Below, in pieces: positions 607-15,170 of a DNA stretch of 64,000 nt (its first letter is position 1; each line of letters begins with the position of its first letter). Below the pieces are notes generated by a model. The model made no database searches. It had not been told where the DNA came from and worked only from the letters and a program-made list of their open reading frames with translations. The stretch covers positions 558,001 to 622,000 of the forward strand of contig WIUZ02000012.1 in assembly GCA_015956445.1 (NCBI GenBank). Direction: 5' to 3'. The position numbers and the translations under genes were made by a program. Source of the DNA: Thelephora terrestris. Lineage: Eukaryota; Basidiomycota; Agaricomycetes; Thelephorales; Thelephoraceae.

Positions 607-9079
<8,473 letters not shown>

Positions 9080-12128: not shown

Positions 12129-12267
12129 AGAACACGAGGAAGGAGGAACGGAAAGAAAATAAAGTAACCCTAACCCCACTGAGCATCCCCGATCATTCCT
12201 TACGTAAGAAGTGATATTGCTTGAACCTCACACTGATCGCTCGATCCTGCCCAGTATATGGCTCTCT

Positions 12268-12358
12268 CAATTGGCTAGGCTCGACGCAAGCCCGGCCCGG
12301 CGGAGCCGGAGCCCTCACGCGGAACGCGTGAGGGGCTTGGGGCAAAGTGACACTTTTT
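12268..12358 (-). repeat. Structured cloverleaf-like repeat, copy 1 (left, inverted)
   Basis: Read on the minus strand the copy runs: an AAAGTG/CACTTT dyad; a closing stem CAAGCCC...GGGCTTG; inside it a perfect 10-bp hairpin CCCTCACGCG-TTC-CGCGTGAGGG and a second hairpin CCGGC-TCC-GCCGG; then TCGAGCCTAGCCAATTG at the outer edge. The closing stem and dyad also occur in copy 2 about 0.9 kb away, in opposite orientation. Over the flanking parts outside the hairpins I count about 39 of 52 identical positions between the copies. The function is unknown. Confidence 0.75.
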
Positions 12359-13210
12359 GTATGACCCGGGTTGAGTAAGTAATTTTTGTGATCGAACTAC
12401 AATTTTTTGTTGCATCATTCGTTCGACTACAAGACAAATGTAATGAAAAATGTAATACAATGTCACACTCCATGTAGCGGGTCGTCTTCTCAACCTCGCG
12501 CTTACCAGAGTCGGGGTTCCAACAGATTCCTAGAGAAGCTGGTAGTTGAGAGTGAGGGGAAGACGAGGGACCGTCCCCGCTCCCACCAGCTTTGGCGTTT
12601 TGTGGCGATTGAAGGGGAATCTGGGGGATCATCCGAGCCTGAAGGCGAACAGCGTCGTTTAGATGGGTCGCGAGGAATAATCCGTTCGTCGGAGGGAGGA
12701 GCTTCCGAAAACCTCGAAAATCGAAATGTTCCTGTGCTCTATGCAGAGGGTTTTGGGGGCAGGTGATGAATTGCGAAAATGGACGAGCCACCATCTTCAG
12801 CACCCGCAGCGGAAATGACAAACAACGGTCAAAGAACGGGTATGACACCCGGGCGAGTTCGTGGGTCGGAAAAGGTCCTCTTCCATCCCTCGAGGTCTGC
12901 GAGAGGCTCGAATGTGATATGATCATGAAGATGATGAGGCATATTTGATTCAGGCACGTGGGACCCATGCTTGAGGTCGGCGACGGAGTCGAGTGACGGA
13001 TGCTTGGACGTATTGTCGTTTTCTCAAGCTTTGGTAGGGTGCACAGTCGGCGCCAAGGCAAGATGGCCAATGTATACTACTCTTCTCTCGCAGTGATGTC
13101 ACACGGGGTCACGCGGGAGCGATTAGTCTCATAAGAACTCGTTGTAGTGGATAACGATGGGGCTAAGGGCGACGATAACAATAACGATTTCCCACGACCC
13201 GACTCCTGCC

Positions 13211-13328
13211 AAAAGTTACACTTTGCTTCAAACCCCTCCCTCGCGGGAGGTATCCGATCTTCGATCGGATCGGCCGCAGGCCGAAGCTCGCCGAGGGAAG
13301 TGGGTTTGGTACGAACCTACTCAATTGG
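13211..13328 (+). repeat. Structured cloverleaf-like repeat, copy 2 (right)
   Basis: On the plus strand: ACTTT...dyad, a closing stem CAAACCC...GGGTTTG, then three successive hairpins: CCTCCC-TCGC-GGGAGG, ATCCGATC-TTC-GATCGGAT and TCGGCC-GCA-GGCCGA. It ends with CGAACCTACTCAATTG. The closing stem differs from copy 1 at one base pair, and both sides changed together (G-C in copy 1, A-T here), so pairing is kept. The hairpin interiors differ in sequence and number between the copies. Confidence 0.75.
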
Positions 13329-14145
13329 CATGGACAGCCCGTAACTTCACCATCTTGGACATTATTGTACGTCATACCGACTTGAAACTCCCGCTGGCGG
13401 TGCACCACTCAATCGCCGCTGACTGTCCACTGGATCTGACGATCGGCAGGATCAGAAGTAAACGATCCTTAGGGTCCGAGGATGAGGGACACGCAACATC
13501 CGCAATTCGGCATTATTCATTCCTAATGGTGGGTGGTAGGACCCCAGGCAGCCTGTTTGCCCCCCGCGAGACGCGCCCAGCATCCGGCCATTGCAAGAGC
13601 CTTCCCCGACCGGAGAGACACTAAGAGATCACCGGGTGATACATGTAAATGGTCCGCCCAGTGTGTCGTTCAAGGCCTTGGAACCATCACACAGGATTGT
13701 AAGAACGAGGCGCGGGAACTTCCATGAATTCATAATTGGGAAGAGACATCGACTTTCCCGCATCGCGTGCGTGCGCCTTGTTCGGCATCTGCAGGAGTTT
13801 CGTGTTGAGCTACTCAGCGGACAAATCCACTCATCGGGAGCGAAAGCAGTAACCAGGGCTATGGTAACAGAGGCGGTGGAGCTGTACCAGCGCGGGACAA
13901 CGCCAAAGGACTTGGGCCGTATTGAGTTGGAATGCAGGAACCTTTCAACGTGAGGGAGAATGGCTTAACCGTCGACGTTATGTGAAGAAATGCATGGGAA
14001 AGCCTGAATAAATCTGAATAAGCACCTTCTACACGCGCTCCCCTAGTACCTGTACATTCAACCACATCACAGTCCGGTCAATATGCGGGGTACAATGGAA
14101 TTCAGAACATCTGCCGATATTACCTCGCAAGAATCTTGAGAGTTT

Positions 14146-15170
14146 TCACCCCCGTGGGGACCTGGATCCGCTTGAACCTCTCCGACGAGGACGGGAGGAA
14201 TATGGTCCAGGGGACCGACTCCGTCCTGACCTGTGTCGGTCTCTCCGAGATGATGAAGGACTTCTGCTTCTGCTCCTTCGCGGTGACACCTTTTGCCCAT
14301 CGTCTCCTGGAACTCCCAAGGATTTGAGCAGCTCCTCCACGCCGCGCATGGCGTCCGACCTTCCTTGTAGCACTTTCCTCTTCGCCCTTTTTTCCCTCTT
14401 GCGTTCCTTACGTACTCGTCTCTCCTCAGGTGTCTCGTCCTTATGCTTCTTGGATTTCTTTTTCTTGCCGGCCCGCTCCTCCAGACGCTGCGCGATGATG
14501 AAGTCACGCATGGGATCCTCAGGGTCGATATCTGCCGCAATATCTGATTTCTCAGACTCCGACGGGGCGTCATCTACACAATTTCGGCGATTCAGCGAAC
14601 TAAGATGAGATAGGTAGACGCTGTGTGTGTGACTCACCGATGACTACCTCTGGCCTAGCGTTGAGACTTTGTTCCTCAGGATCAACCCACTCCCCGTCTT
14701 GATTCTTTATGCGTTTCTCCTTGTAATTCTTCACGTGGTCCACCCGAATCGTACGCTCCAAGATGGTGGCTCCATTTAAATTGTCAACAGCCAGGATGGT
14801 CGACCTCTGGTCTTCGTACATCAGGAAGGCGAAACCCTTGGGCTTGCCCGTCTCCTTGTCGCGGGGCATGTTGATATTCATAATTTCCCCATACTGGGAG
14901 AAGATCGAAATGACGTCCCCCTCCGTCAAGTCTCGTGGAAGGCCCCCTGCAAAGATATATGCGGAGTCTAAGCGACCTGTCAGCGAAAGGTTATGAGCTT
15001 GTTGGACTTCGATCACGCACCCTTATAATCATCGTGCCAGGATCCGCTCGTTCCCAGGTCAAGTTCGCGTTGGTTGATCCGTTTTATCTCCTGCACAACA
15101 CTGGAGCCAGCCTGTGAGACATTCGTCACCGTAAGAGTGGGACGACGCGTGGAAGTTGGACGCACTTCAT
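14146..15170 (-). CDS. IST3: Ist3/Snu17 (RBMX2) RNA-binding protein of the RES complex
   Basis: Subunit of the pre-mRNA retention and splicing (RES) complex, which joins the activated spliceosome. The RRM is complete: [55 protein letters not shown]. It is preceded by SGSWHDDYK, as in the family. The C-terminal part is lysine-rich ([19 protein letters not shown]) and ends in RS repeats and SPRG at 14146. The start is spliced. A five-nucleotide exon ATGAA (15170-15166) joins over an intron beginning GTGCGT to TGTTGTGCAG, giving [15 protein letters not shown], the conserved family N terminus. No in-frame ATG exists in the second exon. Further introns follow HDDYK and PEVVI. It is divergent from eIF3d. 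Confidence 0.9.

Follow-up and report, generated by a model that had tools for sequence, protein, structure and literature searches.

Two facing hairpin-rich modules in Thelephora terrestris, very probably the ends of one non-autonomous DNA transposon that appears to carry host gene pieces

The window analysed here is a stretch of 64,000 nucleotides of the Thelephora terrestris genome. Within it, two structured modules face each other, and the sequence agrees with the way in which the initial annotation had described them. They lie some 150 bp upstream of a minus-strand NOP14-like gene, four frames of which match PF04147 and whose protein, opening MAKGSQL, probably starts at the codon 12126-12128. 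The other flank likewise holds minus-strand frames, one of which, at 14600-15016, has an RRM domain. Very probably, both modules belong to one non-autonomous DNA transposon of 1,044 bp, as its left and right ends; it occupies 12276-13319, and its parts are as follows.

12266-12275, no strand: left copy of the target-site duplication (TSD), 10 bp of host DNA, CTCAATTGGC, identical at 10 of 10 positions to 13320-13329.
12276-13319, plus strand: the proposed non-autonomous transposon, 1,044 bp, TAGGCTCG...CGAACCTA; a copy on C59 is 99.9% identical over exactly these bases and has another TSD.
12276-12293, plus strand: left 18-bp terminal repeat, TAGGCTCGACGCAAGCCC, with the dyad GGCTCG-N3-CAAGCC; matches the right end at 13 of 18 positions and is common to the miniature copies.
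12287-12339, plus strand: left closing stem CAAGCCC/GGGCTTG (12287-12293 with 12333-12339; fold z -4.15), with two hairpins inside it at 12297-12309 and about 12313-12333.
12334-12339, plus strand: third motif copy of the left end, GGCTTG.
12344-12356, plus strand: left inner dyad, AAAGTGACACTTT, read from the sequence.
12276-12507, plus strand: left constant region, the element's own; 97% identical to the C12 copy over element bases 1-64 and 89% over bases 58-232.
12508-12644, minus strand: apparent captured piece, sense on the minus strand, its source taken as a host AAA-ATPase gene; 82% identical to the C8 locus L013:3009-3141.
12705-12919, minus strand: apparent captured piece in two parts, its source a host gene that weakly matches an F-box-like domain; 81% and 79% identical to L017:2244-2326 and 2400-2540.
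13093-13319, minus strand: right constant region, the element's own; 85% identical to the C12 copy throughout and 85% to the C15 copy over the outer 176 bp.
13211-13224, minus strand: right inner dyad, AAAAGTTACACTTT, read from the sequence and recognisable in the C12, C15 and C10 copies.
13229-13308, minus strand: right closing stem CAAACCC/GGGTTTG (13302-13308 with 13229-13235; fold z -3.22), with hairpins at 13270-13284 and 13253-13269 and a possible third at 13235-13250 that is absent from the minimum-energy fold.
13302-13319, minus strand: right 18-bp terminal repeat, TAGGTTCGTACCAAACCC; matches the left end at 13 of 18 positions and is common to the miniature copies.
13320-13329, no strand: right TSD copy, CTCAATTGGC, identical at 10 of 10 positions to 12266-12275.

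The initial annotation had placed the outer edge of each module at CAATTG. This hexamer sits inside the 10-bp TSD and is hence host DNA; it looked like an inverted edge because CAATTG is itself palindromic. The flanks outside the hairpins, for which a match at 39 of 52 positions had been given, match at 40 of 53 in our alignment (outer part 19 of 26, inner part 21 of 27). The terminal 18 bp of the two ends have 13 matches, a number never reached when the element was shuffled 20,000 times under a first-order Markov model.

A second copy lies on another contig (C59:1464872-1465915), where it differs from the window copy at one of the 1,044 bases, is flanked by a duplication of ACAATGCCCC and ceases to match exactly at the element ends. 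The near-identity of two copies at unrelated sites shows that the element has moved, probably recently. A genome search for further copies gave 36 matches in the source genome, and 26 exact occurrences of the end pattern TAGGYTCGNNNCAARCCC were counted where about 0.3 would be expected by chance (our own arithmetic, equal base use assumed). At up to two mismatches the pattern is not commoner in the genome than its reversed control (133+139 versus 134+138 hits), and it therefore cannot count old copies. The family comprises about 30 loci, 21 belonging to subfamily A and 9 to subfamily B, by our own count from the search lists with duplicated segments counted once; a few further ends are known from the pattern match alone. 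Subfamily B ends in TAGGCTCGTTCCAAGCCCCGG and TAGTCTCGGCACAAGACC. Five loci are long copies (those of the window, C59, C12, C15 and C10), and the inner flank pattern GGGGYTTGRNGCAAAGTG has seven exact hits in the genome, all within these five; from the C15 and C10 copies we recovered the right end only, with no second end or duplication within about 19 kb of each. The others are solo ends and miniature copies; in the latter the ends are fused to each other, and the 12 that were measured are 71-127 bp long. Being short, present in several copies, bounded by terminal inverted repeats and, in 10 of the 12, by 9-11-bp TSDs, and having their ends in common with longer elements (the 1,044-bp and C12 copies), the miniature copies have the features by which MITEs are recognised.

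Several insertions have histories of their own. In three pairs of insertions (L066/L067, L028/L069 and L073/L074) the flanks agree although the contigs differ, two of these contigs being very small; such pairs are either duplicated segments or alternative haplotypes of the assembly. The C15 copy is interrupted at L059:1663-8429 by three roughly 1-kb direct repeats and an 804-aa open frame, which by eye looks like a putative retroelement polyprotein. The left end of the C12 copy contains a 2.4-kb repeat (L010:3616-6032, element bases 1440-3857), whose ends read TGTGA...TGACA, which has an apparent duplication of 5 bp, AGCCC, and which is found near full length at no fewer than about 40 places in the genome; no repeats of 20 nt or longer were seen at its two ends, and two of its frames gave no Pfam match.

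TSDs of 9-11 bp flank 13 of 15 two-ended insertions chosen for their legible ends: nine agree at 10 of 10 positions, two at 9 of 10, one at 11 of 11 (L026) and one at 9 of 9 (L066), the last two having been read by eye from the flanks, and L019 and L075 have no clean TSD. The count leaves aside L067, as a duplicate of L066, and the degenerate candidates L024, L025, L042, L065, L070, L071, L073/L074, L086 and L088, among which, by eye, L074 has a 10-of-10 duplication and L042 none. The solo ends L012 and L014 are flanked by 10-11-bp repeats, and no duplication was detected at seven other single ends tested. A search with joined flanks revealed unoccupied paralogous sites for the C12 insertion (C12:1923849, 96%; C12:1874719, 92%) and for the C8 insertion (C5:199223, 97%; C5:145867, 91%). 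Aligned base by base, each empty site holds one target copy and no element, and in the less similar relatives the target copy has one or two changes. We put no weight on the weaker spanning matches, at 68-84%, seen for the C12, C8, C9 and C13 copies.

Many copies with the same edge, flanking duplications and empty sites all support the first option of the initial annotation, an undescribed non-autonomous element, and the dispersed structured repeats that it had offered as a second are better described as the two ends of one element. Its third option, a conserved RNA, finds no backing in the window, which has no Rfam match at gathering scores and no tRNA, or in the 10-bp duplications. Strong single-strand folding of the ends, computed with DNA parameters, is what a dispersed structured RNA gene or a retroposed RNA would also display, but terminal inverted repeats, duplications and apparent host gene pieces in the interior, one of them with an intron, make such an origin extremely improbable, and as the main reading it is refuted by the empty sites and the duplications. 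Searches on fungal Pack-MULEs, on mushroom and cloverleaf MITEs and on transposon superfamilies, with a coverage lying mostly outside subscription journals, brought up no description of this family among the papers listed.

Element bases 1-232 and about 818-1044 are constant, and the interior between them differs among copies; the 89% match of the left constant region to the C12 copy stops where the apparent captured piece starts. At the level of sequence comparison, Pack-type gene capture is evident, the interiors appearing to be partly host gene pieces, with at least three different interiors within one low-copy family of one genome: AAA and F-box-like pieces in the window and C59 copies, AAA and CTNNBL pieces in the C15 copy, and a helicase piece with a C60-like piece in the C12 copy. 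Bases 233-369 of the window and C59 copies are 82% identical to a frame on C8 (L013:3009-3141) that has no Pfam match of its own; a frame matching PF00004 (1.7e-8) follows about 2 kb downstream of it, and we infer that both belong to one AAA-ATPase gene. Bases 430-644 are 79-81% identical to a frame on C17 (L017), 73 nt of which are skipped, and this source frame matches PF12937 only at E 0.036, below the cut-off, with none at 0.01. For bases 370-429 and 645-817 of the window copy the genome search gave no match. The C15 copy has the AAA piece beside a CTNNBL piece (PF08216, 4.2e-13) that is 93-95% identical to C9:509021-509086 and 509418-509747 and skips 331 nt of its source. Since the window and C15 copies share the AAA piece and not the others, capture occurred more than once. 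As in Pack-TYPE elements, sources of the AAA (C8), F-box-like (C17) and CTNNBL (C9) pieces are found elsewhere in the genome, two of the source loci (L013 and L017) contain no element end pattern, and at least these three pieces look captured, to judge from the alignments.

The C12 copy holds a short piece that is 79% identical to C60:1210134 and a DEAD-box helicase piece (PF00270, 4.1e-8), whose reading frame extends over 302 aa if a 54-nt intron is left out. Because this piece retains its intron, it came from DNA and not from spliced RNA. Capture of spliced RNA is further contradicted by the 73-nt skip in the F-box-like piece, which lacks GT/AG bounds and across which the source frame continues without a stop. 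The genome yielded no close DNA source for the helicase piece, whose paralogues are 27-38% alike in protein. The piece may have been captured from an outside source, or it may be an old gene of the element itself, because some fungal DNA transposons code for helicases, as the available text of PMC10799480 reports.

A Pfam scan of the window's longest element frame, four C12 frames, one C15 frame and two C10-region frames detected no transposase, and in this respect too the frames scanned resemble those of Pack-TYPE elements. The C12 copy, the largest with two ends (3.9 kb), was rejected as an autonomous parent: its length is due to the separate 2.4-kb repeat in its left end, and its own interior matches a helicase, not a transposase. 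Helitrons, which move by rolling circle and have neither target duplication nor terminal inverted repeats, were rejected given that both are present here. The KDZ lineage is abundant in this genome, with 125 matches to its transposase domain. Zisupton and Kyakuja, with duplications of 8 and 7 bp, respectively, according to the available text of PMC12730594, were set aside as KDZ candidates given the mostly 10-bp TSDs of the present family.

Among the families considered, the TSD length fits MULEs best, and we lean towards a Mutator-like transposase as the one that would act on the element. The available text of PMC6446971 gives MULE target duplications of 8-11 bp, and 9-11 bp are found at the 13 of 15 insertions. 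The long terminal repeats common in MULEs, often hundreds of bp, have no counterpart here, where there are 18 bp and a 27-bp inner flank; such repeats are, however, not strict, some MULEs in the same text having 22-51 bp or none. The genome contains two MULE transposase loci, L079 (C2:269962) and L080 (C60:784179), which are 97% alike in protein and 98.7% alike in DNA over 1,758 bp; one of the two also has another frame that matches SWIM weakly, below threshold. Within 1.5 kb on each side of both loci, and in a 5.3-kb stretch around one of them, no related ends were detected with up to two mismatches allowed; in that stretch a lone end hit with three mismatches is taken as chance, and no terminal repeat belonging to the MULE genes was found.

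We therefore envisage, as a proposal, a low-copy family of class II elements that would move by cut and paste. A transposase supplied in trans would recognise the 18-bp terminal repeat (dyad GGYTCG-N3-CAARCC), the third motif copy GGYTTG and the inner AAAGT..ACTTT dyad, would cut at TAGG/CCTA and would insert the element with a 10-bp stagger. Host pieces may be captured during DNA repair or synthesis at the element, and miniature copies and solo ends may arise when interrupted repair joins the hairpin-rich ends. Interrupted repair would also explain the fused ends, the solo ends, the skips in the captured pieces and the palindromic end of one miniature copy, L035. The hairpins would be either substrates of the transposase or by-products of such repair.

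Both ends fold well. Treated as single-stranded DNA, the left end has a folding energy of -26.2 kcal/mol (z -4.15) and the right end one of -24.4 kcal/mol (z -3.22); none of 200 shuffles did as well in either case. The minimum-energy fold reproduces the two hairpins described within the left closing stem; on the right, where three had been described, it contains an extended closing stem with two, and the third (CCTCCC/GGGAGG) is complementary but not part of the fold. Each end carries a six-base motif three times in alternating orientation (GGYTCG from base 3, CAARCC from base 12, and GGYTTG inside), such that the middle copy is able to pair with either neighbour. The states of the three copies are C, G, C on the left and T, A, T on the right (GGTTCG, CAAACC, GGTTTG), and the right-hand states recur in the C12, C15 and C10 copies, except that in C10 both outer motif copies deviate at one base. 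What the initial annotation had taken for a compensatory G-C to A-T change is accordingly one left/right difference across three motif copies and not independent covariation.

Whether folding is maintained, as had also been claimed, was examined in alignments of the family. Over 24 distinct ends (25 aligned rows, which cover all distinct sequences among 44 ends), 95% of the cells of the terminal dyad hold a standard pair, and nine cells are double-changed; none of 500 shuffles was as high on pairing or on double-changed cells, and slid registers have 0-1 such cells. The claim holds weakly here, by virtue of these double changes, and we regard the dyad as real and as probably a protein site. 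The whole miniature fold, in 17 copies (the short L020 and L035 being among those left out), pairs in 82.5% of cells versus 79.4% in shuffled alignments, and 6 pairs and 16 cells in it are double-changed versus 7 and 21 after a slide by one column.

That the cloverleaf ends function as DNA structure, with a transposase or host factor reading extruded hairpins or cruciforms and with selection keeping the fold while the sequence drifts, seems unlikely to us. The dyad statistics are in its favour, as is the comparison of the subfamilies, in which the order of the inner hairpins is kept and the arm sequences differ: one hairpin has C-G as its outer pair in A but T-A in B, and another has had its arms replaced (after a gap had been moved by script). 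However, many changes within subfamilies break pairs, the slid register does as well as the true one, and a terminal hairpin was all that RNAalifold recovered. Even in the dyad, the number of double-changed pairs, two, was reached by 79 of 500 shuffles, and by our own reading the 24 ends descend from about four lineages. L020, at 71 bp, has lost most of its hairpins and keeps a clean TSD, although the deletion may postdate the insertion.

Alternatively, the palindromes could be by-products of mutation: when gap repair is interrupted, snap-back synthesis and template switching would copy the end motif in inverted orientation, and both sides of a stem would thereby change together. We entertain this possibility tentatively. 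It would account for the single state shared by the three motif copies of each end, and it is consistent with the solo ends L012 and L014, which reach the same hairpin arm and then the duplication, and with the skips of 73 and 331 nt in two captured pieces. The miniature copy at L035:1429-1518 (C9:450781) has a right end that is a near-perfect palindrome of itself, running 5 nt into the flanking target copy, and this palindrome may have been left by snap-back synthesis. A hairpin order conserved between A and B is, however, not what repeated random events would produce. Bolder still is the idea of a fungal gene-shuffling transposon whose transposase reads a folded multi-hairpin DNA end with three alternating half-site copies, the arms replaceable and the architecture kept, and which routinely assembles composite gene pieces between its ends; we think this quite improbable.

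Returning to the non-autonomous transposon that we prefer, the element would, by analogy, work like a plant Pack element, in line with the MITE and Pack features found above: terminal repeats, TSDs (8-11 bp in MULEs), no transposase and several host pieces between constant ends are common to both, whereas the present family is fungal, has a very short terminal repeat and hairpin-rich ends, and has no demonstrated MULE parent. The Helitrons of Pleurotus differ from it as rolling-circle elements without TSD or terminal inverted repeats. They have in common with it gene capture in a basidiomycete, as described in the available text of PMC4289320. Pack-TYPE elements are described, in the available text of PMC8903248, as occurring in plants. 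In the Dothideomycetes, as the available texts of PMC3538342 and PMC6710886 describe, a host gene, histone H3, was likewise transduplicated by a fungal DNA transposon, a hAT, with one gene and an 8-bp duplication (PMC6710886) as opposed to the several genes and 10 bp seen here, and its long form in Pyrenophora keeps the transposase (PMC3538342) that the copies described here lack in the frames scanned. Tm1, a Mutator/Foldback element of root-knot nematodes, shares 8-10-bp duplications, composite repetitive ends, MITE-like forms and, in some copies, a captured motif, but its ends are tandem 13-15-bp repeats, not cloverleaf, and a transposase-bearing copy is known (available text of PMC3169594).

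Multi-gene capture by small non-autonomous DNA transposons is a hallmark of plant Pack elements, and the fungal precedents that we found are the hAT with histone H3 (PMC3538342, PMC6710886) and the Helitrons (PMC4289320), as far as the available texts of these papers go. The window copy could affect expression of the NOP14-like gene. With the sources of three pieces still in place, the order and the mechanism of capture should be readable, and the architecture of the ends offers a direct way to test whether the transposase makes use of the hairpins or repair leaves them behind.
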